DNA of 64,000 bases from Verrucomicrobiota bacterium. Lineage in GTDB: Bacteria > Verrucomicrobiota > Verrucomicrobiia > Verrucomicrobiales > Akkermansiaceae. The notes beneath the pieces were generated by a model. The model had not been told where the DNA came from. It ran no database searches and worked only from the letters and a program-made list of their open reading frames with translations. The translations under genes were made by a program, and so were the position numbers. The stretch covers positions 1 through 64,000 of the forward strand of contig JAURPJ010000010.1 in assembly GCA_030835305.1 (NCBI GenBank). The letters are read 5' to 3'. How positions within the stretch are numbered: position 1 is the stretch's first letter; each line of letters starts with the position of its first letter. This document shows, in pieces, positions 3,039 to 63,036 of the stretch.

Positions 3039-4466
3039 TTATTTTTTGGTCCGTTCAAGCCACTTGTTGTATTCGGAGTGTGCGTAATAGATAATATTGA
3101 CGCCAAGTTGATAGGAGGACTCCCAGACTTCACGTTTGACTCCAGAATGACCATCGGCCCAAGCATCACCAATATCTCCGGGGTGGTAATAAGCGACAAG
3201 TCGACCGTCGACAACCCATCCGAGAGCATTGGATCGTCCATGTGGAGCGACGATAGGGAGACGCGGAAGTTGATAAGGAACTTGATGGATCTGATGGTCG
3301 AGATAGACATCGATAAATTCGACACGGGGAAGAACTTTTTTCATCATTGAAACAAATTGACCTTCCCACCCAGAACTTCCTCCGTTGTCACCAAAGAGCA
3401 TGCCGTGATGTTCAAGAAGATAGCGGCGCATGGTCTGAATCTCCATGTCGCTGAGGCTAATTCCTTCTTGTCCGGTCATGTAAACAATAGGTGGACTTTT
3501 TCGTTTGGGAAAACTCTTGAGTCGACCGATTTCCATTGGTTCGGGGCGGTCGCTAACTGGGTGGCCGGTGCGGACTCCGTATTCGGTCAGCAAATTAAGA
3601 TCGGAACCGCGATTCATATCTTGTTCCCAGTCGCCACCATTATATTTGAGGCGAATGAAGCGGACTTTCCCTCGAGCTGTGCCTGATGAAAATCCGGTGC
3701 TATCTCCTTTTCCCTGTCCGATTTGATAAAGGTGTTCCGTGACTTCGAGGACTTCAAGTTTGACGTCATCAATCGGAGGAGGATTGAAAAGGACGCTGCT
3801 GTAGGGGTTGATGACAAACTTCTTGTTGATCACCTTCTGGATTTTTACGACTTGCTTAAGTTGAATAGTATCCCCACCTCCGAGGGGGGATTCGTAAATA
3901 CTACAGCCTGATAGCCTGGTTAAAATGAAGGCTGCGATACTGAAGAGTATGGTGTAGCTCACGAGGGTAAGGAGAGATTGGCGGAGTTTGTGGTTCTTCT
4001 TCCCGAAGTACCAGGCCGAAAGTCTGCGAGGATCCCAGGGATGGCTGTAGTTGGAATTAGTGGAGACGCGTTTTGTTTCGTGATCGATTCCCCACGCAGT
4101 CCATCCAAGTCCAAGAAAGAAGGCCCCGATTGTTCCAATTTGCGAAATGCTAATCGAGAGCGCGTAGGAAAAGTTAAGAAGGGGGAGTTGAACAGCGAGT
4201 TGCCAAACTGGAAGGTAGAAAGCACTTAGAACCCCGCGGCGAATGAGGAGGGAAGACTTGCGGTGTCGGCGAACCCAAAAAAAGAAGACTGGAAGCACTG
4301 AGATGAAGCCGATCGCTGAGAGCCAACGATTCAGCCAAAACCAAACATGCGCGTCGATCCAGAGGAGGCACCAGAATGCTGCGTAAATCCCTGTTAACGA
4401 GATTGGGCTGCGAAGGCGGCGGGGGAGCCGGCTGCAGAGATCTTTAATCTTTTGTCGAAGGAGCAT
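3039..4466 (-). CDS. DUF4159-domain membrane protein
   Basis: A 475-residue protein with several N-terminal membrane spans in the first 190 residues (e.g. AIGFISVLPVFFFWV, LTLVSYTILFSIAAFIL). A C-terminal soluble domain lies at about 265-470. That half contains IVYMTGQEGISLSDMEIQTM, then YLLEHHGMLFGDNGG, IHQVPYQLPRLPIVAPHG and a YYHPGDIGDAW stretch, the signature of DUF4159, a glutamine-amidotransferase-like fold common in Planctomycetes and Verrucomicrobia. DUF4159 often lies beside MoxR/Bat-type or ExbBD genes; here it sits 40 bases after the 154-residue protein and 2 bases before the terminal TPR gene. Its biochemical function is unknown. Because DUF4159 follows the membrane part, it could sense or gate the ExbBD engine (inference). 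Confidence 0.75.
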   Translation of the reverse strand: MLLRQKIKDLCSRLPRRLRSPISLTGIYAAFWCLLWIDAHVWFWLNRWLSAIGFISVLPVFFFWVRRHRKSSLLIRRGVLSAFYLPVWQLAVQLPLLNFSYALSISISQIGTIGAFFLGLGWTAWGIDHETKRVSTNSNYSHPWDPRRLSAWYFGKKNHKLRQSLLTLVSYTILFSIAAFILTRLSGCSIYESPLGGGDTIQLKQVVKIQKVINKKFVINPYSSVLFNPPPIDDVKLEVLEVTEHLYQIGQGKGDSTGFSSGTARGKVRFIRLKYNGGDWEQDMNRGSDLNLLTEYGVRTGHPVSDRPEPMEIGRLKSFPKRKSPPIVYMTGQEGISLSDMEIQTMRRYLLEHHGMLFGDNGGSSGWEGQFVSMMKKVLPRVEFIDVYLDHQIHQVPYQLPRLPIVAPHGRSNALGWVVDGRLVAYYHPGDIGDAWADGHSGVKREVWESSYQLGVNIIYYAHSEYNKWLERTKK

Positions 4467-4506: not shown

Positions 4507-4971
4507 CTACTCTAGCTCTTTGAGAAAACTTCCTCCATCGTCTTCGAGTGGATTGACATTTGCTGGGGCGTTTTTCTTTTCATTTAGCCCAAGTGGAGCG
4601 AGAGGTTCGGCGGGCTTTATTTGTTTAGGGTTAGGGTCGGCTTGTTTGGGCTCGGCAGCGGGAGTTGCTGGATTTGTAACGATAGGCTGCTCAGGGTCAG
4701 GACTCTCTTTATTTCCAAAAAAATAAGGAATGGCGGTTAGGGCAAATATGGCACCGATTACCAAAATAACTGAAAGAACGATAGCTCGGATAAGTTGGCT
4801 CGACGCGACGATTCCTAGCATCTCTGGCGGGCTCTTTCCCTTTAGTTCACGAAGAAATAGCTGGAGCTCCTGAACGGTGGCTCTTGAGTTAGCCTTAAGT
4901 TCACGGAGGTCGGCCTTGGCGCTAGCCATAGAAGTGCGAGATGCACCAGAGTTCCTTGATTTTCCTTTCAT
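4507..4971 (-). CDS. Single-span protein with Pro/Ala-rich periplasmic tail (TonB/TolA-like topology)
   Basis: A 154-residue protein that I do not recognise. A basic N-terminal cytoplasmic part with an Ala/Leu-rich, probably coiled-coil helix covers residues about 15-45. One clear membrane span follows at about 61-85 (IRAIVLSVILVIGAIFALTA). The last 65 residues are rich in Pro, Ala, Asn and acidic residues with repeated PAEP/PNPKQ-like pieces and end in SFLKELE. Cytoplasm-in, one span, Pro-rich periplasmic linker is the topology of TonB and TolA, but no globular TonB C-terminal domain is visible. It overlaps the second exbD by 4 bases, so it should be made together with the ExbBD proteins. 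A linker or stator-coupling role is inferred. Confidence 0.7.
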   Translation of the reverse strand: MKGKSRNSGASRTSMASAKADLRELKANSRATVQELQLFLRELKGKSPPEMLGIVASSQLIRAIVLSVILVIGAIFALTAIPYFFGNKESPDPEQPIVTNPATPAAEPKQADPNPKQIKPAEPLAPLGLNEKKNAPANVNPLEDDGGSFLKELE

Positions 4972-5384
4972 TGGGAAGACAGAGGTTGTTCGGGTTCAAG
5001 GATATGAACGAGATCGCCACCGGCTTCACTGATCGCAGCGATAATGGGTTCAAAGTGTATTGCTTTGGCTTCCTTGTGAACTTTGAGAAAGACATAGCGT
5101 TTTCCCGATGGGGTATCACCGAGAATTTGCGAAAGGGCTGCAGGAAGTGCATCCGTAGAAATCTCTTTGCCATCTAGGTAGTTTTTGAACCCAGTATCGA
5201 TGGTGACGCTCGCTAGCGGAGAGGCGACCATTTCAACTTCCTTGAGCTTGGCCGGTTGCCAGCGAACGTGACTGTCGTCCTGCGCTCGAGCGAGTATGAC
5301 GAAGAAAATAAGCAATAAGAAGCCGATGTCTCCCATCGCGAAGGAGGGAACAGATGCCGTAAGTTTTTTTCGGGGGAGTTTCAT
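4968..5384 (-). CDS. exbD: ExbD/TolR-family protein (second copy)
   Basis: A 138-residue protein with the ExbD layout. A short basic cytoplasmic N-terminus (MKLPRKKL) is followed by one membrane span at about 18-33 starting GDIGFLLLIFFVIL, then a periplasmic domain of about 100 residues. The span carries Asp19 at the position of the essential proton-carrying Asp of ExbD/TolR/MotB, so it should be able to couple to the proton gradient. The start codon overlaps the stop of the first exbD by 4 bases, and its own stop overlaps the next gene by 4. It differs clearly from the first copy in the periplasmic part, so the two are probably non-redundant subunits of one motor. Confidence 0.88.
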   Translation of the reverse strand: MKLPRKKLTASVPSFAMGDIGFLLLIFFVILARAQDDSHVRWQPAKLKEVEMVASPLASVTIDTGFKNYLDGKEISTDALPAALSQILGDTPSGKRYVFLKVHKEAKAIHFEPIIAAISEAGGDLVHILEPEQPLSSQ

Positions 5385-5803
5385 TCGACGTTAATGATCC
5401 GATCTGATTCGAGTTCTAGAGTGAGGATGCCGCCTTCTTGTTCGATGACTTGTGAAATTTTAATCCAGAGCGGGTAAGGCGTATTGGGTTCGCTTTTAAC
5501 GGTGACGACGCGGTCTTCATCTCTCGTCTTTTTAGACAATGCTGCGTTGAGCTTTAAGGGAAACTCTTTAAGTTTTAGAGGGCTTCCGTCCAGGATGATG
5601 CTATTTGGTGTGATTGACACCTCGATATTTTTGCTTTGTTCCTGCTTCTCAGTTTTCTCCTCCGTCTTTGGAAGAATCTGTGCAATTCCGGTCTCTGGCT
5701 GCACTGCGGCGCAGACGAGAAAGAAGATAATAAGGATGAAGGCTATATCCGAACTGGCACTGGCAGGTGGATCGACCAACAATTTGCCGCGTTTTAGTTT
5801 CAT
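5381..5803 (-). CDS. exbD: ExbD/TolR-family protein (first copy)
   Basis: A 140-residue biopolymer-transport protein. A basic N-terminus MKLKRGKL precedes a membrane span at about 18-34 beginning SDIAFILIIFFLV. Asp19 is the conserved intramembrane proton-carrying residue. After the span comes a charged Glu/Lys/Gln-rich linker (EEKTEKQEQSKN), then a periplasmic domain with the ExbD-like pattern VSITPNSIILDGSPLK and a late RVVTVKSEPNTPYPLW segment. In family members such domains bind TonB/TolA-type or peptidoglycan partners. The gene overlaps exbB by 4 bases upstream and the second exbD by 4 bases downstream, the tight coupling expected of stoichiometric motor subunits. Confidence 0.88.
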   Translation of the reverse strand: MKLKRGKLLVDPPASASSDIAFILIIFFLVCAAVQPETGIAQILPKTEEKTEKQEQSKNIEVSITPNSIILDGSPLKLKEFPLKLNAALSKKTRDEDRVVTVKSEPNTPYPLWIKISQVIEQEGGILTLELESDRIINVE

Positions 5804-6507
5804 GAGTTTTCCTTGTTCAGAGTCAGTCGGAGAGAAACAACTTCAATAAGCTCAGCGGCAGATGATTCAACCTGAAGAACAAAGTCATTGATGAGTCCGG
5901 TGAAGTAGTTGAAAGCCATGTAAGCTGGAATACCTACGATTAATCCGAAGGCAGTGGTGAGAAGGGCAACTCGGATTCCCGATGCCGCAGCTTGCACGAT
6001 GTTCTGTTGACCGATGTTCGCTTCAATATCGCCGAATGCTACGATCATCCCTTGTACTGTCCCGAGAAAACCCAGCATGGGTGCAACGGAAGCGATAGTG
6101 GCGAGAATCGGAAGATGGCGCTCGAGGACTGCAACAATATTAACCCCGTAGTTTTCCATGCTTTTTACGACCTGTTGTTCCATTTGAGCCTGATCGTAGT
6201 TTAGACGGCGAAGGACGAGGTATTTACGAAGACCATTTGAAAGAATTGCGGGAACGGGGCCGCGTGCGGAGTCACAGAGTTTTAAGGATTCTTCAACTTT
6301 GTCTTCGGATAAGAGTTCGATGACTTCTTCACGGAGAGTTCCTGCATCGGTTTCAAGGAGCTTGAGGCTACGATAGCGCTCAATGATGACTGCAATAGCC
6401 ATGATCAGAAGAGCAAGTAACGGCCACATGAAGGGGCCGCCTTCAAGTAAGAATTTTAGAGCACCGGATTCAAAAAAACCGGCATCAGCGAGGTGGACTG
6501 GGATCAT
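5800..6507 (-). CDS. exbB: MotA/TolQ/ExbB proton-channel family protein
   Basis: A 235-residue inner-membrane protein with the three-span ExbB pattern: span 1 at about 27-43 (FMWPLLALLIMAIAVIIER), a cytoplasmic loop, and spans 2 and 3 at about 134-158 and 176-203. The signature PMLGFLGTVQGMIVAF (about 143-158) and the polar-lined third span GIRVALLTTAFGLIVGIPA are both present. ExbB/TolQ/MotA proteins form the pentameric stator around ExbD dimers and use the proton-motive force. It starts 2 bases after the 2375-residue gene ends and overlaps exbD by 4 bases. No tonB, tolA, tolB or pal gene is seen in the run, so the driven partner is probably one of the unusual neighbours. Confidence 0.9.
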   Translation of the reverse strand: MIPVHLADAGFFESGALKFLLEGGPFMWPLLALLIMAIAVIIERYRSLKLLETDAGTLREEVIELLSEDKVEESLKLCDSARGPVPAILSNGLRKYLVLRRLNYDQAQMEQQVVKSMENYGVNIVAVLERHLPILATIASVAPMLGFLGTVQGMIVAFGDIEANIGQQNIVQAAASGIRVALLTTAFGLIVGIPAYMAFNYFTGLINDFVLQVESSAAELIEVVSLRLTLNKENS

Positions 6508-6509
6508 GT

Positions 6510-9500
6510 TTATTCGTTTAGATTGGCTTCTTTTTCAAATTGGGAGAGGAGTTCAGGAAGTGCGAGTCTTCCACGTGAATACTTAGCGGCATCACTTTCT
6601 GGGAAGTCCCAACGGCAGCGGTTGTAGCGTCGAAAGGCGTTAGGAATATCTCGACCCATACGATAACTTTCACCGGCCCAAAAAAGTGCTTGAGCAGTAA
6701 GTTCTTGGTCAGGAAACCGTTTAGTAAAGGCGTCGAATGATTTGCCCCCTTTTAGAAATTCTTCTTGCTTGTAATGGCATTGGCCAATGCGGAACGCCAT
6801 CTTTGGAGTCCACTCATGGTTAGGGAATTTCTCCAGAAATTTTTCGCCGACCGAGGCTGCAACCGAGTAGTCCTCCTTAGTATAAAAGTGTTCGTTAATA
6901 CGAAGCATCACATTTGCGATGAGAGGGCTCTTTGGATAGGTTCCAGCTAAGGTCACATATGCTTCAAGCGCTTCATCGAGTTCGCCGGCTTCTTCGTGAC
7001 ATTGACCAAGTTTATACTGTGAATCCGGGGCGAGATTGTGCTCGGGGTGATTTCTGACGATGGATCCATATGCGGCGATAGCTTCGTTCCAGGCCTCCAT
7101 TTCTTGAGCGAATTGACCGAGGAGGTAGGAAACACGTGGAGCGTATTTGGGGTTAGGGTAGTCGTCTTGAAGATCACGAAGAACGCGTTGCCCCGAGGTC
7201 AGTGCCGCTTCAGCCTTGGCGTCTTGTTTGAGCTTGCGTTGGCTCTTGAAGAGTTCGAAGTAGCTCTCCGCGATATGGAATTGAGTTTGGATCGCTAAGT
7301 CTTCATCTTTGTAAATCTTACTAAAGGCAGCCATTATGCCATCAGTGCCAACGGCAACCGGCAATATACATTTAATGATGGGTTGTCCGTCGGTAGTTTG
7401 AATGACGTTATCAAGATATCCCGCGGTGATTTGATCGCCGAAGAAGCATTCGATTTCCCCTTCAAAATTTCCGGGCACCGGTTTGGGATTTGCCTGGAGG
7501 GGGAATGAACCGCTGAATACTCCGCTGTGTGTCAGAGTTTCCTCTAGTTCGACCGTTTCGTCCTCACCGCTTTCGGTTATGATTCGCACGATGGCCAAAT
7601 CTCGCTTTTTCGAAATATCGAGATCTGGATCGGAAAGCCGAAGGAAGAGTTTCTTGCCAACGTATGCGATTTCGGCGGGTTCTAAATATTCTTCATTGGT
7701 GATTTCGAGGCTAGCAGCAGAGAAGAGCTTTGCGGCAGCATTCAAAGTAATTTTGGAGTCATCGGGCCGTGAGGTGTCCTCGTAGATGGCTGTAAATTGG
7801 TCCGTGCCAACAACGCTTAGAACCGCCAGTGCGGCTTTAGATTTATTTTCTCCATCATCGAGTTCGGTTTCAGGGTCGGGCTCGGTTGGAATAATGATTT
7901 TCCCGAGTCCGCTTTTTGGCAAGGTGCCGTCTTCGGGAACCATCGTGATATTTTGTGGCGAGCCTAAGAGGAGTGGAATTTGGCCAACGAAACGGCCTTC
8001 TAAAAGAGCTGGGTTCCGAGATTCTGAAAGGGCTTCGTTCGGAGTAGCGAAGGCTCGCGATAGGACACACTCGACCTGGGTCTTCACCCCTTGGGTGGTC
8101 ATGACTTCGACGAGCACCGTGCTGCGGGAATCCTTGGCGCGGTCGGGATCAATAACTTCAATAGTAAGAGGGAGGCGATACTCGACTTTGCTGATGTAGT
8201 CTTGCGGGCGAGGCTCTTCAACGGGGAGAAATTGCAAGCCACCTTCAACTGAGGTTTCGCTATCGACAATCTGGATTTGAGCCTCCGAAGGCTCATTTAA
8301 AAGAACGACTGTCTCACGAAAAAAAGCATGCCCAGGGAAAATGTTCTGCGCATCTTTATAGCGAAGGTAAACTTTGTCTCCTTGTTTGACTGTGATCTTA
8401 CCTTCGGACGCTTCGGCGGCCGTGTCGATCTCAGCGAGGAAAACCCCAGTCGAGGCACCGGTCTCGGTTGCAGTGTATTTGAAAGGGGGGGCTGAATTAA
8501 CTTGAATCTCTACCTCGACTTCATCGCGATCAAGACCGATGTCTAGATCAAAGTCGACAATCTCAGCAACGATTCGTTCGCCGGGTTCAATACGAAGAAG
8601 TTCTTTGCGAGTTCCTTTGACCGAGCCATTTCCGCTACGAATAAAGTCGTAACTGATAGGTGTGATTTGGCCGTTGTAGTAGGTCGCAGTGAGAGACTTT
8701 GTGAGAAGTCGATTTCGTTGCTCAGCTCCAGCAGTGAGTTCATCAAGATAGGAAACCGTAACTGTGTCTCCAGGTGCGAGCTCGAGGACATCATTACTTG
8801 CGAGTTCAAGGACGTCAGCTGTGGGTGGGATGTGTTTGAGTTCACCACCTGAAATTTCTACGTTGTTGATAGCGATTGCCTCGCCGCGATACTCAAGGAA
8901 CTCAAAATCAATGAACCTTAGCTCACGAGAGGGCATTGAAAGGTTCCAGCGGTTTTCTTCTTGAGTGATTTCAGGAGCAGGAACTGGTTCGAAATATGGA
9001 ATGTCAGCAGCGGAATCCTTGTCAAAATCAATAGCGGTGAAAGGTCGCATTTTGACGATTGATGATTGGCGATTTTCACGAGCCAGTTTTACTTCGACTG
9101 ACTTTGCTTCAGGAGTGGCGATGGAGAGTATATTGAGTTTATGGACCCCTCGAGGAACAAAGAGATCTACACTTTGGGTTCCTTCGCGAATCGGCATCTC
9201 CAGCTTTCCGTTAAGCATGAGCGCGGTGTTTCGCCCGGACACCTCGATTCGTATCGCTCCTTGGCGCTCCTGGACAAGTGGGCCAGACCAAAGGAGGAAG
9301 TAGGCGTCCGTGCTTTCCTTCGGGGATTGCCACGAGAGAGCTTCCACTTGATTAACCTCGGTTGGTTTAACTTTTTGGACGAGGTTGGAGATCTCTTCCC
9401 ATGAGTAATTTTCTTTCAGGCTTTCGGCTGAAGTCTTGAAGACTCGAAGGAGCATGTCAGCTTCTGGGAAATTGAGTGGTAGAGCGGGCTTTGGTGGCGG

Positions 9501-12500
9501 GAATGAAGCTAGGTTAAACCAAAAGCGTCCGTCGTGGCTCCCTCGAATTGTCATCCGGACTGGGGCTTCTTCGTCTGTTTGGGGAGAAGTGAGAGTGATC
9601 GAGTCAGTCTTACGGAGCTCTTTCATGTCGATTGAAAGAGACTTAGGCGCGGCACCATCGGGCTCGCTACGCCAGGTGGTTTCGAGCGAATGATCAATTG
9701 CTTTGAGTGGGCTATGATCAAGGGCGGAATCCGAGGCTTTTGCTCCTGCGGGAAGTTCTCCGGTGCGGGACATCCCAAGAAAGATGCCGCCGTGTCGGCT
9801 CTCTTCATCGATTTTGAGTTGAACTTCATCGCCACTTGAAGTGGAGAGTTTCACGCTGACCTTATCTGGGGTGTCCGTAAGATCGCGGTCCCCATCCTTA
9901 ACCTGAAGATAGATTAGATTACCGGGTTTCACCTGATTTCTCGGGCGAGAAGCAGAGCGTGATTGCTCCTCTTTCTCTTCTACGATTTCCTTTTTGAGGA
10001 CGTCAGTAAAACTAGCGTCTTTTTCATTAATGATTTCGCTGCTGGCCACTTCGAGTGATCCATCGGAAGCGATTCGAAGGCGCGTGTTGCTTAGAAATTC
10101 AAACTGGAATTGCTTTTTAAAATCCTCGGGGTAATCGACAGAGATAATGTCGCCTCCGGTGACCTGTAAGACCCCGTCTCCAATATTTGCCTCGCCAAGG
10201 GTCGTTGGGAATTCAGTGAGAAAGATTCCTTTGCCTGCCCCTCCACTGCTTAGGAAAGATTCCTCACGATCATTCCCGGGCTCAGTGCGGACAATGACGG
10301 GGATGCGTGTGTCTCCGCGGCTAATCCCCAAATCTGGGTCTTGCACGACGACTGAGAGAGCCTTGCCTGGGGCATGCCAGAGTTTTGATTCCTGTCCGAG
10401 GCGTCCCACAGTACGTAGTGTCTCTAGTTGAGTAAGGAATCGTTGTTCGATTCCATAAACTTCGGCAAGGTTATAGAGTGTTTTGTTGGCGAGTGCGGTA
10501 TCCGGAGCTTGCTCTAGGACTGAGAGAAAAATCCGGCGCGCTCGTTCGTTGTCCTCCTGTCTGATAGCGAGGACTCCTCGAAGGAAATTCGCTCGTATCG
10601 ATATGGAGGGGTTGGGGTTTTCTGAAAGTGTTGTGAAAATTTCTTCAGCCTGATCGTAGACGCGCTGAGCCATGTAAGTCTCTCCAATTCCAAATTGTGC
10701 TTCAATCGCCTCTGGCTGATCCTTATAGAGATTCAGAACTGTGGTGAATTCAGCACGAGCAATGTCGTATTGTCTGCCTCGCTGATAGTTACGCGCTAGA
10801 AGAAGTTGAATTTGTGACTTGTCGCGAACATCGACTTTTTCAGACTCGCTAAACTTAAGCATCCATCCACGAAGTATATCCTCCGCTCGATCATGATCTT
10901 CTGGAGTTCCTTGCGCGATGTGAATTTCTGCACCAAATAGAAGAAGTTCTATCGGAAGGTCATGGCGGTGCTTGTTGAAAAGCTCCTGATTTTCGTAATA
11001 GCTCGCCTCGGCTCGCTCGTTATCACCAAGACGAAGGTGGAGGATCGTTTGTAGAAGCGGAGCGATCGGGCTATCTGATGGAATATCGGCACTCAGAGTT
11101 CCCATTTCTCGATAAGTATTACCGAGAAGTTTTCGAGCCTCCGTTATTTCGGAATCACCTACTGAACGGATGGTGTTTAGGAGTCCATTTAGAATTGTGG
11201 TTCCAAGTGGGAAATCTTTGCGAGCGAGAGCAGCCTGGGCGTAGGGGTAGATTCGCCTCCATGATTCATAATGTTGGTCGGCCGTCTTGATGAGAGCTTG
11301 TGCGCTTAGAAGTCGATCGACCGATCTAGCTGAGGTGCTGAGGAGATCGAGTCCGGCTTCACTGCTCACCCGTCCAATGCGGAGATCTCTAATTATTTTG
11401 TAAACACGCTTTTTTTTGTCTTCAGGCCAATCTTTAGAGCTCTTGGCAGTTTCGAGCCAGGAGCGAGCGGGCCACTCACCCATACCCCAGGATCGGAAAG
11501 GCGTTTGATCTGCGCGATCACGGGCTTTTTTGAGAAGCGACTGCATTCCTTCGAGATCGTCAGCCTGAAAGAGAAGGTTCGCGAGTTCAGCAGCGTAGGC
11601 TCCGTGGTAAGCAGTGTCTGCTGCTGCTCGATTTTTAAGAAAGCCCTGCGCGAGGTCGGGTTTCATAGTCGACGCGACACGAAGGGTGCAATCAACATAC
11701 TCGCGGTTACTCGGGTCAAGACCCATGAAGGATTTCCACCATTGGATGGCTTCGGTTTCCATCCCAAGCTCATTCATGATATCGCCGATTCGGGTGCTGT
11801 GGGCGGATCTATTGTCACTCTGTTCCTTTGATTTTTTGATCCATGGGATGGCCTTTCGGATCAGGGGCTCATTTTTGAATTCGACGAGGCGATACCAGGT
11901 GTCGTAGTGGGCGGGGCCGGGAGGGATTAAGAGGAGGTGGTTGGCTGCTGCAAGTTTCATGGCCACTCGATCTTTTTCTGGAGCGTAGGCTGCAGCTTCG
12001 AGCCATTGTTCCGAAGCCGCGAGGTCTTTTGGGAATTCTTGACAGAGCTTTTCGTAATACTTTGCAGCACTTTCTTTTGATTTCCCTCCAAGGTGGTGGC
12101 GATACACATACGCGAGTCGTGAAAGAACAAGGCGACGTTGTGTTTTTGTGAGTTTTTGCTCGAGAAGCTGCTGACAAGATTTACCTGATTTTCCTCCTTT
12201 TTCTTGAATGCCTTTCCAAAGATTGGCCACCGGATCGTTTTGATGAGACTTTTTAGCTATTTGCCAGCTACGATTTTGTTCTTTATCCTTTGGGGCATTT
12301 TTCCAGATTCGATCTTGGAACCCAGCAAGATGTGGAAATGATTTTGCGCTGCTACTGATGGCTGAGAGATCTTTACGGAAGGTCTCTGGTCCGGTGGCTG
12401 ACGAATAAAGGAAAGCAATAATTTCCTCCGTCCATTTATCTTCGGTTGGAGATTTTGCGAGAAAGTCGTAGGCAACGCTCCGTGCCTTCGCGATATCTTT

Positions 12501-13637
12501 TAGGCCATCTCGATAAACACTGAGTGCAAGGACAGCGCGGAGGGTTCCTACTCCGTTAGGATTTTTTGCAATAAGTTTAAGGAGGCCCCGGGCGGCAAGA
12601 GAATGATTGTCCCCGTGCCATTTTACATAAGACTGGAGAAGGTTTTGATTGGTAACGTCGTGCAGCATGACGCTCTCAGCAATGGTTAAGGCTCGAGTTA
12701 AGTCCTTGGCTTCGGCGGCCGCATTCGCTGCCTTGATAAGCGGGGTAAATCGATCATCGCGCTTAGGAAAGGCCGCAAGATACTTTTTCGCTTCCGCTTC
12801 AATTGCGGAAGGGGGGGTCTTTGCGCTGATCATGGCGTCGATCAGATTGCTATGAACATCAGCTCGCTTTGATTTAAGAGCTTGGCGATATGATTGAATT
12901 GCATTTTCAAATTGTCCTAATTTTGATTCAAATCGACCGGTGCGAAACCATAAATCTTGTTTATCGAGTTCATTCATGGGGGCATTTCGGCGAATGAGAG
13001 TTTTTGCGATTTGAAGCCCTTCGGCCCATTGCTCTGCTCGCTCGGCGGCGTGCATCCCCTGAAAGCCAACTCCAGTGAGTAGCGAAGTGGCGGGGATCTT
13101 CACAACCATCGCAGCTGCTAGGCTGGAGGCCCGGTTGAATGAGGCGCCATTATTGACCTGATTGAAGAGACCGAGCGCTTTGATGCCCTGGCTAGTAGGG
13201 CCGTTATTTTCCCAAATAGTTTGATACTCAATTGCGGCAAGATTACTGCGGCTGGTGTTCTCATATGCAGTCGCAAGGTATTCTCTTACTTTGTTAGTAA
13301 GAGTGTGCCCTGGGAAGATTTCCAAGAATTGGCGCCCGGTCATTATCACGTCGTCATGGCGAGCCGTTACGGTATAACCTTCAATGAGCTTAAGGGTCAT
13401 CGCGGCGCGTTTGGGGTTCTCAGTCTGGGCGCGTGAAAACTTCGAAGTGGTGCGAATGATCCCGAAGACCTTTTCGTCCTTCCAGTAAAGGTCCACTAAT
13501 TCCTCCATAAGTTTCCCCCCTGAGGAAGATGATTCTGTTGTTTCCTTGAGCTTCGCCTCAAGGTCGATAGCTTTGTCGGCATGCGCCGGCATGCTTAAGA
13601 AAAGAAGTAGAGCGAGTTGAGGGATAAGTGTTTTCAA
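6510..13637 (-). CDS. Giant secreted TPR and beta-repeat protein (2375 aa)
   Basis: A signal peptide (MKTLIPQLALLLFLSMPAHA) directs export. About residues 60-1080 are TPR-like helical repeats. Residues about 1090-2100 are beta-rich, with a recurring module of the form D-x-D-x-D followed by strands, a TxxGD/E turn and S/T-G-V/I-F near the end, e.g. VVVQDPDLGISRGDTRIPV, IVDFDLDIGLDRDEVEVE and LRLSDPDLDISKKRD. An F5/8-type-C-like stretch lies at about 1305-1372 (TTWRSEPDGAAPKSLSID, then GSHDGRFWFNLASF). Residues about 2110-2365 return to TPRs of the YbgF/BamD style (YPNPKYAPRVSYLLGQFA). The start codon is TTG within TTGA, overlapping the stop of the 725-residue gene. I know no named protein with this architecture. 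A periplasm-spanning or cell-surface scaffold driven by the adjacent ExbBD is inferred. Confidence 0.82.
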   Translation of the reverse strand: MKTLIPQLALLLFLSMPAHADKAIDLEAKLKETTESSSSGGKLMEELVDLYWKDEKVFGIIRTTSKFSRAQTENPKRAAMTLKLIEGYTVTARHDDVIMTGRQFLEIFPGHTLTNKVREYLATAYENTSRSNLAAIEYQTIWENNGPTSQGIKALGLFNQVNNGASFNRASSLAAAMVVKIPATSLLTGVGFQGMHAAERAEQWAEGLQIAKTLIRRNAPMNELDKQDLWFRTGRFESKLGQFENAIQSYRQALKSKRADVHSNLIDAMISAKTPPSAIEAEAKKYLAAFPKRDDRFTPLIKAANAAAEAKDLTRALTIAESVMLHDVTNQNLLQSYVKWHGDNHSLAARGLLKLIAKNPNGVGTLRAVLALSVYRDGLKDIAKARSVAYDFLAKSPTEDKWTEEIIAFLYSSATGPETFRKDLSAISSSAKSFPHLAGFQDRIWKNAPKDKEQNRSWQIAKKSHQNDPVANLWKGIQEKGGKSGKSCQQLLEQKLTKTQRRLVLSRLAYVYRHHLGGKSKESAAKYYEKLCQEFPKDLAASEQWLEAAAYAPEKDRVAMKLAAANHLLLIPPGPAHYDTWYRLVEFKNEPLIRKAIPWIKKSKEQSDNRSAHSTRIGDIMNELGMETEAIQWWKSFMGLDPSNREYVDCTLRVASTMKPDLAQGFLKNRAAADTAYHGAYAAELANLLFQADDLEGMQSLLKKARDRADQTPFRSWGMGEWPARSWLETAKSSKDWPEDKKKRVYKIIRDLRIGRVSSEAGLDLLSTSARSVDRLLSAQALIKTADQHYESWRRIYPYAQAALARKDFPLGTTILNGLLNTIRSVGDSEITEARKLLGNTYREMGTLSADIPSDSPIAPLLQTILHLRLGDNERAEASYYENQELFNKHRHDLPIELLLFGAEIHIAQGTPEDHDRAEDILRGWMLKFSESEKVDVRDKSQIQLLLARNYQRGRQYDIARAEFTTVLNLYKDQPEAIEAQFGIGETYMAQRVYDQAEEIFTTLSENPNPSISIRANFLRGVLAIRQEDNERARRIFLSVLEQAPDTALANKTLYNLAEVYGIEQRFLTQLETLRTVGRLGQESKLWHAPGKALSVVVQDPDLGISRGDTRIPVIVRTEPGNDREESFLSSGGAGKGIFLTEFPTTLGEANIGDGVLQVTGGDIISVDYPEDFKKQFQFEFLSNTRLRIASDGSLEVASSEIINEKDASFTDVLKKEIVEEKEEQSRSASRPRNQVKPGNLIYLQVKDGDRDLTDTPDKVSVKLSTSSGDEVQLKIDEESRHGGIFLGMSRTGELPAGAKASDSALDHSPLKAIDHSLETTWRSEPDGAAPKSLSIDMKELRKTDSITLTSPQTDEEAPVRMTIRGSHDGRFWFNLASFPPPKPALPLNFPEADMLLRVFKTSAESLKENYSWEEISNLVQKVKPTEVNQVEALSWQSPKESTDAYFLLWSGPLVQERQGAIRIEVSGRNTALMLNGKLEMPIREGTQSVDLFVPRGVHKLNILSIATPEAKSVEVKLARENRQSSIVKMRPFTAIDFDKDSAADIPYFEPVPAPEITQEENRWNLSMPSRELRFIDFEFLEYRGEAIAINNVEISGGELKHIPPTADVLELASNDVLELAPGDTVTVSYLDELTAGAEQRNRLLTKSLTATYYNGQITPISYDFIRSGNGSVKGTRKELLRIEPGERIVAEIVDFDLDIGLDRDEVEVEIQVNSAPPFKYTATETGASTGVFLAEIDTAAEASEGKITVKQGDKVYLRYKDAQNIFPGHAFFRETVVLLNEPSEAQIQIVDSETSVEGGLQFLPVEEPRPQDYISKVEYRLPLTIEVIDPDRAKDSRSTVLVEVMTTQGVKTQVECVLSRAFATPNEALSESRNPALLEGRFVGQIPLLLGSPQNITMVPEDGTLPKSGLGKIIIPTEPDPETELDDGENKSKAALAVLSVVGTDQFTAIYEDTSRPDDSKITLNAAAKLFSAASLEITNEEYLEPAEIAYVGKKLFLRLSDPDLDISKKRDLAIVRIITESGEDETVELEETLTHSGVFSGSFPLQANPKPVPGNFEGEIECFFGDQITAGYLDNVIQTTDGQPIIKCILPVAVGTDGIMAAFSKIYKDEDLAIQTQFHIAESYFELFKSQRKLKQDAKAEAALTSGQRVLRDLQDDYPNPKYAPRVSYLLGQFAQEMEAWNEAIAAYGSIVRNHPEHNLAPDSQYKLGQCHEEAGELDEALEAYVTLAGTYPKSPLIANVMLRINEHFYTKEDYSVAASVGEKFLEKFPNHEWTPKMAFRIGQCHYKQEEFLKGGKSFDAFTKRFPDQELTAQALFWAGESYRMGRDIPNAFRRYNRCRWDFPESDAAKYSRGRLALPELLSQFEKEANLNE

Positions 13638-15811
13638 AATCCTGCTTTTTTGAGGGCTTCCACGATTTTATTAGCTTCTGTGGCAATGTCACTTTCGGGA
13701 TAGTCGCGGATGAGATGTTCGAATTTTTGGCGGGCTTCGGGCTTTTTATTAAGCTTGTAGAGACAGCGGCCATAATTGAAGAGTATGACATCTAAAAAAT
13801 TGGCGTCGGGATAGTCAGAGAGAACATTTTCAAAAACGTCAACGGCGCGCGCGTAATCTTCTTTCTTATAGTAGAAGGCAGCCATTTTTGCGACAGAATC
13901 CCCAACCCGGCCCGAATCAGGAAACTGCTCGTAGACTTTTTGGTAGGCTAGAAATGCTTTCTCATAGAGACTGGCGGATTGTCCCGTGGTGGCTTTCAAG
14001 GCCATGGCTTCATAGCACTCGCCGGTGAAGAATTGACCTTCTCCTTTTAAAGGGCTTTCTGGGATTTTGGCGATACTTGTATAGAGGTTGATAGCGCGTG
14101 GGAAATTCTCGCGTTTTCGCTCAACATGGGCTTGTTGCAGCATCGCTTCGTCCACGAATGAGCTGGATGGAAATTCATTCAGGAGACGTCGACTCATACC
14201 AAGCGCTAGGTCTAGCTTATCCATAGCGAAGTAGATCCGCCAAAGTTGCACATACGTTTGCTCGAGGAGTTTTCCTCCAACCTTCTTGGCTTGAACGAGG
14301 ATTTCCTCACAGACATCAAGAGCTTCAGCATATTTATAATTGGCCTTTTCGTTGAGACCAAATTCCTTGTAGTGATTGCCCACTTCGGTAAGTGCCGAGG
14401 CGGTTTGAAGTTTCGTTTTAAGTCGAAGTTCTTCGTCGGAAATTTCGGTCCGAGTGACACGCACTTCGCCGAGGTTTCCCTCAATGATTTTGGTTTCAGA
14501 GGTGCGAATCATGGTGCCTTCGCCGAGGTTCTGATCGTCTCGGTAAACGAGTCGGACGATTTGGCCGGGTTCGCCGGTGAGAGTGTTGGCGGCGGTCGAA
14601 AGCCGGAGAGGGATTGCGAGACGGAAAGTTCCTCGTTGCTCTTGTTCACGTAAAGTTACAGGAACCGCTCGGACCATGAAGAGGGGGTCAATCTGAGATT
14701 TCAAATCTTCCCCGTCAGGGCCCTCTTCAAGTTCTCCACTTGCGACTCCTTTCGCGAGTTCCGCGTCAATTTCATCGGGCGTTTTACGCCGAAAAACTTG
14801 AACGGTGGCTTGGATCTGGTCGGCTCCGTTAGTGGTGTCGTGATCGGCGTCGGTGACCTGGAGGTGAAGTTGCTTTCCAAGAACTGCTGCCGGTAGATTA
14901 TGGAGGTAAGACCCGTCCGTGATACGCGCTACTCCATTGCCCACAACCATGACATCCTTTAGGCGCTTTGCGTTGGTGTCTTTTTGAGCGGTTTGGGCAT
15001 CGATATAAGTGACTGTGATCCGATCTCCGCCGCGCAGTTCGAGGGTGCCATTATTAGGAGAAGCTTGATTGAGCTGGGTTGGGATCCGACCCATCACGAT
15101 CCGAGCATTTCGACCAACAGGATCGCACACGACTGTTTCTTCATCGCCACCTGTGGTAAGGCAGCGAACTTTGATTTGAGAACCAGGTTCTAGAATAGCG
15201 AAATCCTGATCATCGATTTTTACATAGAATCGTTTCCCAGCTTCGACTTTTTCGACCAGTGAATCTTTATTCGAGAGCGCGGTGCCAACTTTTTCGAGTG
15301 CTTCAATAGCCCGGCTGTAGTGGCCTAGTTTGAAGTGGCCGAGGCCGATATAGTAGTAAGCTTCATTAACCTCGGAAGAGGCGGGAAATTGTTCGATGAC
15401 ATCACGCATGATGCCAAAGCATTTCCCGTAGTTGCCCGCTTCGTAAAAGCAGGTCCCAGTATTCAGGAAAGCATAGGCGCGCTTGGCGTCATCTCCGTTG
15501 GCTTCAACCGCCGCTGCTTCGTAGTGAACGCGCGCCTTGTCGAAGTCTTTGATCTCCTTGAGCAGGTGATCGGCAAGACGGAGGTGGGCGTCAAATCGGA
15601 TCTGGCTGCGAGGATAGCGCTCAACGACCGACTCCCATATCTCAAGGGCCTTTTCGTTTTCCCCGACCTCAAGACGAGCATCGCCCGCTTGAAGAAGCTT
15701 TCGCGCCGCGCGATCTTCAATGATCGAACCGCGCTCGACGGCCTTGGGCGTTTGAGCAAAGAGAGGGAGGGCGAGGAGGAAAGAGAGGAGCCGATTGATG
15801 AAGTTGCTCAC
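13634..15811 (-). CDS. Secreted TPR/beta-repeat protein, smaller partner of the giant protein (725 aa)
   Basis: It starts at a GTG and has a signal peptide ending around SFLLALPLFAQ. Its plan is a miniature of the 2375-residue neighbour. TPRs lie at about 30-190 (LEIWESVVERYPRSQIRFDA). A beta-rich centre at about 200-430 carries the same module (LHLQVTDADHDTTNGADQIQ, later EQEQRGTFRLAIPL). C-terminal TPRs lie at about 450-720 (YARAVDVFENVLSDYPDANF). The stop overlaps the giant gene's TTG start by 4 bases, and the gene starts 5 bases after the DUF1501 gene. Shared architecture and coupling suggest the two arose by duplication or accretion and work as a pair. Function is unknown. Confidence 0.82.
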   Translation of the reverse strand: MSNFINRLLSFLLALPLFAQTPKAVERGSIIEDRAARKLLQAGDARLEVGENEKALEIWESVVERYPRSQIRFDAHLRLADHLLKEIKDFDKARVHYEAAAVEANGDDAKRAYAFLNTGTCFYEAGNYGKCFGIMRDVIEQFPASSEVNEAYYYIGLGHFKLGHYSRAIEALEKVGTALSNKDSLVEKVEAGKRFYVKIDDQDFAILEPGSQIKVRCLTTGGDEETVVCDPVGRNARIVMGRIPTQLNQASPNNGTLELRGGDRITVTYIDAQTAQKDTNAKRLKDVMVVGNGVARITDGSYLHNLPAAVLGKQLHLQVTDADHDTTNGADQIQATVQVFRRKTPDEIDAELAKGVASGELEEGPDGEDLKSQIDPLFMVRAVPVTLREQEQRGTFRLAIPLRLSTAANTLTGEPGQIVRLVYRDDQNLGEGTMIRTSETKIIEGNLGEVRVTRTEISDEELRLKTKLQTASALTEVGNHYKEFGLNEKANYKYAEALDVCEEILVQAKKVGGKLLEQTYVQLWRIYFAMDKLDLALGMSRRLLNEFPSSSFVDEAMLQQAHVERKRENFPRAINLYTSIAKIPESPLKGEGQFFTGECYEAMALKATTGQSASLYEKAFLAYQKVYEQFPDSGRVGDSVAKMAAFYYKKEDYARAVDVFENVLSDYPDANFLDVILFNYGRCLYKLNKKPEARQKFEHLIRDYPESDIATEANKIVEALKKAGF

Positions 15812-15816
15812 GTGAC

Positions 15817-17070
15817 TTAAGTAAATAGTTCGTTGATGGGGGCCGCTTCCTTGCGGACGAGTCGCATTGGCCGTCCCTGGGGAGTGGTAAGTTCCTTGTT
15901 GAGGTCAATGCCGAGGGCATGGCAAAGGGTGGCGTGCAGGTCGGCCACCTTCACTGGACGTTCGGCAACTTCCATGCCGTCCGGGTCCGAGGCTCCGACA
16001 ATGCTTCCCCCCTTGAGTCCTCCGCCAGCCATCATGCAGCTAAAGACACGGGCCCAGTGGTCGCGGCCGCCACCATCGTTGATGCGGGGAGTTCGTCCGA
16101 ATTCACTGAGAACCACAACCAGCGTCTTGTCGAGTTTACCATTCGCTTTGAGGTCCGAGATGAGGGAAGCGATGGCGGGGTCCATGGCTGCTCCGTGATT
16201 ACGCATGGCCTCGAAGATGTTTCCGTGATTGTCAAACCCACCACGGTTAACCTGCACGAATCGGACTCCTTTTTCGACGAGACGCCGGGCAAGAAGGGCT
16301 CCGCGACCAAACTCGGTGTCGCCATATTTTTCGACCGTTGCGGGAATTTCTTCTTTGAGGTCAAAAGCCTTGAGTGCGGGGCTCTCCATGAGTGCGACCG
16401 CGTCTTTCAACGCGGTTTGGGAGGCTTTTAACTCTTTCGCGCCTTTCTGATCCGAGGTGCGGCGATTCATTTTTTCAAGGATCTGAAGTCGTTGCATTCC
16501 CCGCGCGTGGCTGATGCCTTCCGGGAAGGTTAGGTATGGGTCCTTTTGTCCGGGGCGGCCGACGAAGTAGGCTTCACATTGCTGCCCAAGATATCCCGAA
16601 CGGGCGGCCTGACCGCTAATACTGACGAGAGCGGGAAGGTCTCCGAGTGGCTCGCGTTCGTGAACGACAAGAGAACCAAGTCCCGGATGCATGATATTGG
16701 GGGATTGGTTGAAGCCGGTTTGGAGTTCATACTGGGCACGACCATGGTCACCGTTGGTCCCGGCGATAGAGCGGATGAGGGTTCCATGGTGCATTTGCTT
16801 GGCTAGCTGCGGGAAGATTTCCGAAATCTCCATGCCTTCGACCGAAGTTTTGATGGGATTAAACTCGCCCTGAACCTTACGACCTGGTTTGGGATCCCAG
16901 GTGTCCAGATGACTCATTCCTCCGCTATTCCAGAAGAGAATGACATGTTCGGCTTTTGCCTCTAATGAAGTGCCTTGGGCCAAAAGTTGGCTCACAGGCA
17001 TGCCAAGGAGGCTCGCGCTGAAGGTCTTCAGCATACGTCGGCGGGTAAATTGGTAATCGGAGCAGGACAT
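15817..17070 (-). CDS. DUF1501 family protein (Tat-exported), operon copy
   Basis: A 417-residue protein with an N-terminal twin-arginine-like signal (FTRRRMLKTFSASLLGMPVS) suggesting folded export. The body has the DUF1501 landmarks of the alkaline-phosphatase/sulfatase-like superfamily: HVILFWNSGGMSHLDTWDPK near residue 40, GDHGRAQYELQTGF, GVRFVQVNRGGFDNHG, VVVLSEFGRTPRINDGGGRD and a late HATLCHALGIDLNKE. DUF1501 proteins nearly always pair with PSD1-type cytochrome proteins in Planctomycetes and Verrucomicrobia; the partner lies 46 bases upstream. The pair is usually discussed in connection with degradation of complex or sulfated polysaccharides, but no reaction is proven. Here the pair opens an ExbBD/TPR operon. 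Confidence 0.88.
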   Translation of the reverse strand: MSCSDYQFTRRRMLKTFSASLLGMPVSQLLAQGTSLEAKAEHVILFWNSGGMSHLDTWDPKPGRKVQGEFNPIKTSVEGMEISEIFPQLAKQMHHGTLIRSIAGTNGDHGRAQYELQTGFNQSPNIMHPGLGSLVVHEREPLGDLPALVSISGQAARSGYLGQQCEAYFVGRPGQKDPYLTFPEGISHARGMQRLQILEKMNRRTSDQKGAKELKASQTALKDAVALMESPALKAFDLKEEIPATVEKYGDTEFGRGALLARRLVEKGVRFVQVNRGGFDNHGNIFEAMRNHGAAMDPAIASLISDLKANGKLDKTLVVVLSEFGRTPRINDGGGRDHWARVFSCMMAGGGLKGGSIVGASDPDGMEVAERPVKVADLHATLCHALGIDLNKELTTPQGRPMRLVRKEAAPINELFT

Positions 17071-17116: not shown

Positions 17117-19558
17117 TTAGGGGAGAAATCGGAATTCGTTGGAGTTGAGGAGCGCCCACCGGAGGTCGGCCATGCCTTCGGCGGAGTTATTGACGATGGT
17201 GCGGGCGTCGGCCTTTTCTTCGGCGGTGGGAAGGCGGGTTAGAATTTCCTGGTAGGCCCAATCGATGGCGAGGTTTTGATCTTTTTTGAGGAGACGGTGG
17301 ATTGGCTCGAGGGTTCCAACGCGGGAGGCTTCGTGGGTCATGCGACCATTGAGCATCAGAAGCTGCTGGCGAAGCGAAGAGGCGTCGTCGCGGAACTCAC
17401 CGAGGCCGGTGCGAGCAGGTTGGCCAAAGACTCGCAAAAAGTGAGCGGGTGGAGCTGGAGTCGCCATGCGCATGGCGCTATCGAAACGAGGGTTGTCATC
17501 GACCGTTTCGGTGACGGTTTCGGTTTTGAAATTCATGACTCGGCGCTCTTGTTCTTCGCGCATTGCCGCCATTTCCCGGGCTTTGATGGCCTCATCAGAT
17601 TCCATACGCATGGTGGCGAGTTCGGCTTGTTCCCTAGAGTTAAGAACGGAGTTGAAATCGATCTTCAGGGAAGACTCAAGATCGTAGCCATCGTCTCGCA
17701 TCGGCTTCTTTTCGGCCATCATGACGGGCTGGGGCTCATCGGTTTCAATAATGGTGTATTCACCCGTCGGGACGCGGATCTCGCGAGTGACTTCCTTGCT
17801 GTTGGCTCCCTTGGGCCACTTGAAATCTTCGAGATGACCGGCAATGACGATGCTGTCGTAGAGAACCTCGCTGATCATTCTACGGGTGGGCGCGGCGGCG
17901 AAGTTCAATTCGCTTTTCTCCCGGATTTCGATGTCGGTCTCTGCCGGGAGAGCTGAGCGCCGATAAACATCAGAGAGGGTGATGATACGCACGAGGGTTC
18001 GGAAGTTGTAACCACTAGCGATAAATTCCTGAGCGAGAAAATCCAGGGTGGAGGGGTGATGGAGACCGCTGTAGTCGGAGAAGTTATCAAGCGGTTCGAC
18101 GAATCCGTGGCCAACCAATTCAGCCCAGACCCGATTGACAAACGCGCGGGCAAAGTAGTCATTTCGCGGGTCGGTGATGAGATCGGCCAGTTGGGTCCGG
18201 AGCTCGCTGGAGCGATAGATGTCGCCATGAACGTTGAGCTTACGGCTTTCCTCCTTGGCTTCCTCCAGAACCGGGTCGCCAGGCTTACCAAGGTCTGGCT
18301 CAACTGAGTCAAGGAGGGCGTCTAGGGATGCTGCTTCGTCTTCTCCGGAATTCCTTTCGGCTCGGGCGAGTCGGACGGCTTCAAATCGCTTGATATGCGG
18401 GGGTGTGGTCCCAGGGTCGGACATTTGGAAGGGGAACTTTGGCTTGACTGGCCTGCGTTTGTCAGGCGCGGCTTTGTCCTCGGGCGGCCAAAGAACCATC
18501 ATTTCATCCCCCTCGGTGGTGTAAACTGCCCCTCCTTGGCGTCGGCTCTGCATCTTTTTGGTTTTGCCGAAGAATGCGGCAAGGTCGTAGAAATGCTTTT
18601 GTTCCCAGTCGTCAAAGGGGTGGTCGTGGCACATGGCACAGCCAATCCTGACACCCAGGAAGATTTGGGAGGTGGCAGCTGCCAGTTCCATAGGAGCGGC
18701 ATCGTCGCCGAGGATGTAGCCGACGGCTGGGTTCGAATTGACACGACCGGAGGCGCTGATGAGTTCACGAACGAGGTCGTCGTAGGGTTTGCCTTGATCA
18801 AGGGATCCGTGGATGTAGGCTAAGAGCTGGTTGCCGCCGGTTACGTTGGAGCGGATGCGTAACATGTCGGCCATGAAAATGGTCCAGCGATCGGCGAAGC
18901 GATGGTTGGAGGAGAGCTTCTCGATGAGTCTCGCTCGGCGATCTTCGCCCCAATTTTGGTATTCCCGAATCTCCTTCATTGTAGGGATACGTCCAATCAA
19001 GTCGATAGTGGCTCGCCTGAGGAATGCATCGTCGCCAATGGTTTTGGTGGTGATCACTCCTGTTTCGGCATTTTCACGACGTAAGAGGTCGTCGAGCATG
19101 ACTGCTGCCTCGGCATTGTTGGCGGGAGTCTTCGTTGGAACGGTGACCCGCCTGGGTTTTTCTGGTTTACGCTCGGTTAAAGTGACTCCTTTGGGCCACT
19201 TGGCACCGGCTTCGACCCAGGCATCGAGGATCGCGACCTCTTCCCCTGAGAGAGCCTGCCCTTCGTCGGGCATCACTCCTTCGTCGATGGGGCGGAGGTG
19301 GATTCGAACAAGGAGCTCACTTTCGTCAGGTTTGCCGGGAACAACGGCATCAGCGGTATCTCCGCCTTCCATAAGTCCCTCATAAGTGTCGATTCTAAGT
19401 CCTCCCTTGACTTTCGATTCGGTGTGACAGCGGACGCAATTGGCCTCGAGAATAGGCTGAACTTCCGTCTTGAAATTGGGAGTAGCTGCAAAAGTTGGTA
19501 AAGCTAAAGTACCTGCGATAGCGACCAATGAAAGGGTGATATATTGGGATTTCTTCAA
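17117..19558 (-). CDS. PSD1 cytochrome-c domain protein (DUF1549/DUF1553), first gene of the operon
   Basis: An 813-residue exported protein. A signal peptide (ITLSLVAIAGTLALPTFA) precedes one covalent haem-binding site, CVRCH at residues 41-45, in a planctomycete-type cytochrome c domain. Next come DUF1549 at about 160-370 (RATIDLIGRIPTMKEIREY, later CAMCHDHPFDDW, a second CxxCH) and DUF1553 at about 450-780 (FARAFVNRVWAELVGHGFVE, ending LRWALLNSNEFRFLP). Cys/His sites imply redox chemistry in the periplasm. The start is TTG at 19558, and no in-frame ATG fits the signal peptide. There is no Shine-Dalgarno sequence. It heads the ten-gene run, so its promoter should lie in 19559-19700. Confidence 0.88.
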   Translation of the reverse strand: MKKSQYITLSLVAIAGTLALPTFAATPNFKTEVQPILEANCVRCHTESKVKGGLRIDTYEGLMEGGDTADAVVPGKPDESELLVRIHLRPIDEGVMPDEGQALSGEEVAILDAWVEAGAKWPKGVTLTERKPEKPRRVTVPTKTPANNAEAAVMLDDLLRRENAETGVITTKTIGDDAFLRRATIDLIGRIPTMKEIREYQNWGEDRRARLIEKLSSNHRFADRWTIFMADMLRIRSNVTGGNQLLAYIHGSLDQGKPYDDLVRELISASGRVNSNPAVGYILGDDAAPMELAAATSQIFLGVRIGCAMCHDHPFDDWEQKHFYDLAAFFGKTKKMQSRRQGGAVYTTEGDEMMVLWPPEDKAAPDKRRPVKPKFPFQMSDPGTTPPHIKRFEAVRLARAERNSGEDEAASLDALLDSVEPDLGKPGDPVLEEAKEESRKLNVHGDIYRSSELRTQLADLITDPRNDYFARAFVNRVWAELVGHGFVEPLDNFSDYSGLHHPSTLDFLAQEFIASGYNFRTLVRIITLSDVYRRSALPAETDIEIREKSELNFAAAPTRRMISEVLYDSIVIAGHLEDFKWPKGANSKEVTREIRVPTGEYTIIETDEPQPVMMAEKKPMRDDGYDLESSLKIDFNSVLNSREQAELATMRMESDEAIKAREMAAMREEQERRVMNFKTETVTETVDDNPRFDSAMRMATPAPPAHFLRVFGQPARTGLGEFRDDASSLRQQLLMLNGRMTHEASRVGTLEPIHRLLKKDQNLAIDWAYQEILTRLPTAEEKADARTIVNNSAEGMADLRWALLNSNEFRFLP

Positions 19559-22129: not shown

Positions 22130-22149
22130 AGAAACAATGGGTTGGGAAA

Positions 22150-63020: not shown

Positions 63021-63036
63021 GATTATTTTCTGCAAA

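Follow-up and report, generated by a model that had tools for sequence, protein, structure and literature searches.

Predicted S-layer-type immunoglobulin-like modules in a giant protein and its small partner, encoded next to ExbB/ExbD-type genes in a Verrucomicrobiota bacterium

Two neighbouring proteins and their modules

We analysed a window of 64,000 nucleotides from a Verrucomicrobiota bacterium of the family Akkermansiaceae (assembly GCA_030835305.1, contig JAURPJ010000010.1, positions 1 to 64,000) and focused on two neighbouring genes whose products share a repeated, acidic beta module. The larger gene (6510..13637, minus strand, as are all modules, domains and cluster genes given below) codes for a giant protein of 2375 amino acids (aa). 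It has a signal-peptide-like N-terminus, an N-terminal part rich in tetratricopeptide repeats (TPRs), five immunoglobulin (Ig)-like modules between residues 1088 and 2080, and a C-terminal block of YbgF/CpoB-like TPRs (about residues 2110-2370, 6528..7310). The small partner (725 aa, 13634..15811), whose open reading frame (ORF) overlaps that of the giant by 4 bases, likewise starts with a signal-peptide-like segment and contains a TPR stretch (27-184), two Ig-like modules (189-428) and a second TPR stretch (459-722). Its AlphaFold model has helices at 27-184 and 459-722 and beta structure at 188-443, i.e. TPR, two beta modules, TPR. An earlier note on this DNA had proposed that TPR blocks flank the modules in both proteins, which agrees with this model for the small protein and with Pfam TPR matches for the giant. 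Both proteins are presumably periplasmic.

The consensus of the module can be written as G-x8-DxDx[DGA]...D...GD/E...ETGxxTG[VI]F...L.V..GD...Y.D. The first copy in the giant, m1 (1088-1172, 10122..10376), has a GGAGKG loop in place of ETG. Copy m2 consists of a first part (1236-1297, 9747..9932) and closing strands (1600-1633, 8739..8840, E 0.010); m3 (1682-1765, 8343..8594) and m5 (1991-2080, 7398..7667) complete the series together with m4 (1818-1960, 7758..8186), a degenerate copy with a long insert and a weak score against the hidden Markov model (HMM), which keeps DPD, GRFxG and YxD. The small protein carries s1 (189-272, 14996..15247) and s2 (309-428, 14528..14887); the latter is interrupted by a helical insert and nevertheless keeps D321, D323, E389, G394, F396, Y423 and D425.

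In order to avoid circularity, one HMM was built per module from the orthologues of that module only, and was searched against both proteins and 1000 shuffles. The s1 model found m1 at 33.2 bits, m5 at 22.9, m2 at 13.2 and m3 at 11.2 (best of 1000 shuffles 3.6), and the m2 model found m5 at 23.8 and m3 at 19.5 bits (best shuffle 3.8). The links of m1 to m2, m5 and m3 are weak by HMM and are backed by pairwise hhalign, and the assignment of m4 is based mainly on its conserved DPD, GRF and YxD columns. The existence of the module is thus confirmed, with five copies in the giant and two in its neighbour, as cross-module HMMs score mostly far above the shuffles. The start points named in the earlier note (1099, 1246, 1695, 1825 and 2000) coincide with the acidic motifs D1100/D1102, D1248/D1250/D1252, D1695/D1697/D1699, D1830/D1832 and D2003/D2005/D2007, and its "one or two copies" in the small protein turn out to be two. 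The proposed size of 110-160 residues holds as a repeat spacing but includes linkers; the core has only about 85-95 aa and ends at L.V..GD.I.V.Y.D. The second copy is present as proposed, but it is not contiguous, since its closing strands come some 300 residues later, past an inserted F5/8-type-C domain.

The module is of the type found in S-layer proteins

Profile A2, made from the modules of the giant and the small protein without widening, had its best match in the PDB to 8c8k (E 0.0069). With profile A4, which was widened with paralogues and adhesin copies, residues 1517-1593 of 8c8k_A were matched over the full length of the module at E 7.8e-14. The chain is the surface-layer (S-layer) protein NmSLP of Nitrosopumilus maritimus (Nmar_1547, PDB 8c8k-8c8r), which has ten Ig-like domains, the ninth of them modelled up to residue 1616 according to the passages concerned (PMC11153153). 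The counterpart of the module there is domain 9.

The fold search points in the same direction. An AlphaFold model of residues 1070-2120 of the giant (63 sequences, pLDDT 84.6) was compared to known structures with Foldseek, and four NmSLP chains rank first (E 1.9e-21 to 1.4e-17). The comparison of this model with 8c8k by VIA gave Z 14.6 over m4-m5 (223 aligned residues, rmsd 8.6). NmSLP was also ranked for the small protein (Foldseek E 1.1e-5); its VIA results were filled by TPR chains, therefore its modules were barely tested by that method. Foldseek matches to complement and alpha-2-macroglobulin were read as generic Ig arrays, and the viral structure library gave just generic Ig, PA14 and FN3 arrays with low TM-scores.

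Among the NCBIfam models there is one match at the level of the module, to the exception-level anammox S-layer model NF052345 (E 4.7e-11), and the module is present three times in a row in each of five anammox S-layer proteins above the cut-off of that family. The giant itself is not a member of this Kustd1514 family because it reaches 36.1-40.8 bits against a cut-off of 1400, so that the match holds at the level of the module only. In the Pfam scan of the modules, intermediate sequences included, no model scored above its cut-off (Invasin_D3 was weakly matched, E 0.013), and nothing significant was found by phmmer with one adhesin module as the query. Phmmer with the whole giant against the PDB returned mainly TPRs and the profile of the whole region returned only discoidin-type chains; the S-layer kinship emerges with module-only profiles and with the fold search.

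Taken together, sequence profiles and the predicted fold agree in showing an Ig-like beta-sandwich of the kind from which the S-layer proteins of ammonia-oxidising archaea and of anammox planctomycetes are built. The earlier note had spoken of an unnamed envelope domain and had considered that a match to an already named fold, such as an Ig-like family, would speak against this. As the modules do match Ig-like domains, this applies in part: the domain is indeed unnamed in Pfam and, apart from the one S-layer model, nearly so in NCBIfam, but its fold is not new, being homologous to the solved Ig-like domains of NmSLP and present in anammox S-layer proteins.

Nested domains within module 2

The insert in m2 is a discoidin/F5-8C (CBM32-like) domain that starts after the first strands of the module (giant residues 1295-1380 with a closing strand at about 1585-1597; 8847..9755). 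It matches Pfam PF00754 with E 2.2e-6, and the isolated piece scores 28.2 bits, exactly the cut-off of 28.2. VIA aligned it with CBM32 structures at Z 17.6 (124 aligned residues, rmsd 1.9, model residues 226..528). There are two levels of nesting in m2, because the last strand of the discoidin domain comes only past another all-beta stretch of about 175 residues. The boundaries of this further domain (about 1395-1570, 8928..9455) are approximate, and it had no match in the Pfam scan.

Conserved acidic residues

In m3 and m5 of the 63 giants there is no or almost no variation in the D-x-D-x-D motif, the next D, the E of ETG, the G and F of TGxF and the Y-x-D of the last strand, and the same is mostly true of m2. 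In m3 the invariant positions are D1695, D1697, D1699, D1705, E1725, G1731, F1733, Y1760 and D1762. In 489 distinct module sequences, numbered by model position, D12 is found in 99%, D14 in 95%, Y80 in 99%, and D or E at position 82 in 100%. The glutamate of ETG is missing from m1 and s1. This acidic pattern suits a putative structural metal site, and the invariance of the residues makes calcium binding by the module, which the earlier note had suggested, more plausible. The Nitrosopumilus S-layer is reported to be sensitive to EGTA, and the passages concerned assign no ion to this motif (PMC11153153).

The surrounding gene cluster

The two genes are part of a cluster in the order PSCyt1-DUF1549-DUF1553, DUF1501, small protein, giant, ExbB, ExbD, ExbD, 154-aa protein, DUF4159 and TPR protein, in which most genes overlap or sit a few bases apart. 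On the side of the small protein lie the DUF1501 protein (15817..17070, PF07394 E 9.7e-108) and the cytochrome-type PSCyt1-DUF1549-DUF1553 protein (17117..19558). On the other side, 2 bases past the stop of the giant, follows an ExbB/TolQ-type proton channel (5800..6507, PF01618 E 1.1e-27) and then two ExbD/TolR-type proteins, both of which keep the aspartate of the transmembrane (TM) helix: the first (5381..5803, PF02472 E 4.6e-15) has it at the start of the helix in SDIAFILIIFF, the second (4968..5384, PF02472 E 5.7e-12) in GDIGFLLLIFF. The motor proteins belong to the broad Pfam families MotA_ExbB and ExbD. The last three genes code for the 154-aa protein (4507..4971), which belongs to no known family and has one TM helix by eye and a Pro-rich tail, for a DUF4159 protein with N-terminal hydrophobic segments (3039..4466, PF13709 E 1.1e-30) and for a 563-aa TPR protein with a signal-peptide-like N-terminus (1345..3036). 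The 154-aa protein is conserved and adjoins the second ExbD in most verrucomicrobial loci, and resembles a TonB/TolA-type transducer without the C-terminal domain.

A second pair of DUF1501 and PSCyt1-DUF1549-DUF1553 genes is found nearby (20636-24405), in this case without motor or TPR genes.

Conservation and distribution

We compared 74 loci from named genomes of Verrucomicrobiota and Planctomycetota. Even the giants of Gemmataceae, Phycisphaera and Zavarzinella formosa are about 40% identical over almost their whole length, and the loci retain most of the cluster, which is also present in the cultured strain Z. formosa DSM 19928. Verrucomicrobial loci have the same order as the window, and several planctomycete loci are arranged as small-giant-ExbB-ExbD-ExbD-PSCyt-DUF1501. 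Neighbours were counted on stop-to-stop ORFs for the 57 giants that had room downstream: ExbB lies no more than 400 nucleotides from the end of the giant in 44 of them, and 52 have it at some point downstream in the locus. A pair of ExbD genes was found in 43/52 cases, and the small protein is encoded immediately upstream of the giant in 41/47.

In the home genome every module match falls in the giant or the small protein. Among seven distant genomes searched, six have their modules in a single giant ORF and a single small ORF; in the seventh (G295) they lie in the giants and small ORFs of two clusters. Modules were detected in 20 genomes of a 240-genome sample of the phylum (E up to 0.001), mostly in giant and small proteins, and in a few cases in adhesin-like proteins of 3000-4300 aa. 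Such very long proteins of other Verrucomicrobiota (L150:8946-19901, L151:184-13212, L152:4769-13894) have 2-3 copies of the module among DUF11/SdrD-like repeats, and no TPR was seen in them. A paralogous system with tandem giants (about 2470 and 2600 aa), a small-type protein and then ExbB and two ExbD genes is present in some loci (L031, L033, also L032 and L034); all giants keep the same module order, including the split m2.

Comparison with known systems

It is instructive to compare the features of this locus with systems that resemble parts of it. NmSLP is the best match in both sequence and structure: its Ig-like domains contain DxD...TETxxxTGxF...GD.V...Y.D, and it also has a domain nested within a domain, like m2 of the giant. 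It differs in being an archaeal protein of a two-dimensional lattice with ten Ig-like domains, and neither TPR blocks nor a linkage to a motor are reported in the passages concerned (PMC11153153). Kustd1514 (NF052345) is similar in that three consecutive modules occur at about residues 940-1260 in five proteins, but it is a cell-surface lattice protein of about 1576-1600 aa (PMC5088730).

The gene cluster, on the other hand, resembles the TPR-tolQ-tolR-tolR-vWA clusters described in 2025 for bacteria of the Planctomycetota-Verrucomicrobiota-Chlamydiota (PVC) group (PMC12204202). Both contain a TPR gene, one TolQ-like and two TolR-like genes, and occur in PVC bacteria, so that our cluster is probably of the same kind, judging from the section concerned. 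In that section the TPR gene is termed uncharacterized, and Ig-like modules, the small partner and the DUF1501/PSCyt genes are not described. There the transducer is a vWA protein, whereas here the 154-aa TM protein and the DUF4159 protein come after the ExbDs; compared with the TM helix with an SHLS motif that marks the transducer there, the 154-aa protein has its single helix and Pro-rich tail but lacks a C-terminal domain, and by eye no SHLS was seen in it.

Two further systems combine motors with large TPR proteins. The Agl-Glt gliding machine of Myxococcus xanthus (AglR/AglQ/AglS and GltI, 4132 aa; PMC3169522) also contains one TolQ-like and two TolR-like subunits together with giant TPR envelope proteins, but no Glt homologue was found here besides a non-significant match of the 154-aa protein to GltJ (E 0.024). 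PflA/PflB of Campylobacter and Helicobacter (PMC11392913) combine a periplasmic beta-sandwich and a TPR solenoid in the scaffold of the flagellar motor, and the Foldseek matches of the small protein include the C. jejuni scaffold (9hmf_K, E 2.3e-6); this TPR match is generic, however, and the motor is of the flagellar MotAB type.

A proposed working of the system

We consider it probable that the Ig-like modules act as a rigid spacer within the two exported TPR proteins, and that these proteins make up a scaffold in the periplasm, placed around or above a proton-driven motor of one ExbB and two ExbD proteins. The association of scaffold and motor is shown by the conserved gene order, and physical contact between them is what we infer from it. 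The TPR solenoids would bind partners on the motor side and other envelope proteins, and the Ig-like stretch, perhaps rigidified by calcium at D-x-D-x-D, D, E and Y-x-D, would bridge part of the periplasm. The nested discoidin/CBM32-like domain of module 2 may, judging by its fold, bind envelope or extracellular polysaccharide, and the motor would provide the energy for movement, export or assembly at the outer membrane. By analogy, the best reading is that the scaffold would act like PflA/PflB or Agl-Glt. We also speculate, with considerable doubt, that the system is a PVC-specific proton-driven trans-envelope machine, in which a giant arm moves, exports or assembles a surface polymer, the arm being made of TPR solenoids, S-layer-type Ig modules stiffened by calcium, and a discoidin head that binds sugar.

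There are several points that weigh against the scaffold proposal and the steps leading to it. Firstly, iterative widening, as used for A4, can make E-values look too good, and the Foldseek TM-scores are low (0.12-0.17), the latter because a string of flexible domains was compared. Secondly, the calcium step is drawn from conservation alone. Thirdly, gene order is no proof of contact with the motor, the operon is known here from sequence and models, and no ExbB was present in the fetched flank of some giants (L060, L061, L108).

Three alternatives have to be weighed. The giant could be a surface-layer or adhesin protein outside the cell, with the motor genes as neighbours that have no functional link to it. 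The occurrence of the modules in anammox and archaeal S-layer proteins and in the adhesin-like proteins of other Verrucomicrobiota (L150-L152) is in line with this; yet no TPR blocks are noted in those carriers, as far as they are described, whereas the giant has TPRs on both sides of its modules and is linked to ExbB/ExbD in both phyla, so we regard a surface protein as unlikely. Equally hard to favour is a divergent Tol-Pal/TonB energiser in which the giant and the small protein would be very large factors of the CpoB/YbgF type and would adjust the constriction of the outer membrane or import. The best NCBIfam family of the ExbB protein is TolQ, and the giant (135.1 bits) and the small protein (101.3) lie above the YbgF cut-off of 90.1, which is exceeded only by summing TPR stretches. 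However, the full-length CpoB model reaches 62.5 of 383 bits, the ExbB and ExbD proteins stay far below the equivalog cut-offs (TolQ 108.8 of 221, ExbB 66.7 of 206.2, TolR 30.3 of 127.3), and none of the ten genes in the cluster was identified as a gene for TolA, TolB or Pal. Finally, it is hardly credible that the module is merely a convergent acidic beta-repeat with a compositional likeness to S-layers: the modules are short, D, E and G are frequent in them, and A2 alone gives just the modest E-value quoted above, but the alignment with archaeal and anammox S-layers is in register over the whole module, ETGxxTGxF and YxD included, the fold search agrees independently, and shuffled controls score near zero.

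What is new is the identity of the module, the finding that in the genomes searched it is repeatedly confined to giant/small systems, the splitting and nesting of module 2, and the place of the modules in a conserved motor cluster. These results join three formerly separate subjects, namely the Ig-like S-layer modules of archaea and anammox bacteria, for which there is no Pfam model, the uncharacterized TPR gene of the PVC motor clusters, and the DUF1501/PSCyt proteins, which are abundant and of unknown function. With a profile of the module, hundreds of envelope proteins would gain an annotation, and the function of the motor can be tested directly, as its cluster is conserved and includes a defined giant partner. 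If the trans-envelope machine is real, building blocks of S-layers have been put to a second use as the moving component of a molecular motor.

Towards the far end of the window (60744-63098) there is also a gene for a 784-aa protein with a BatD-like DUF11 domain (PF13584).

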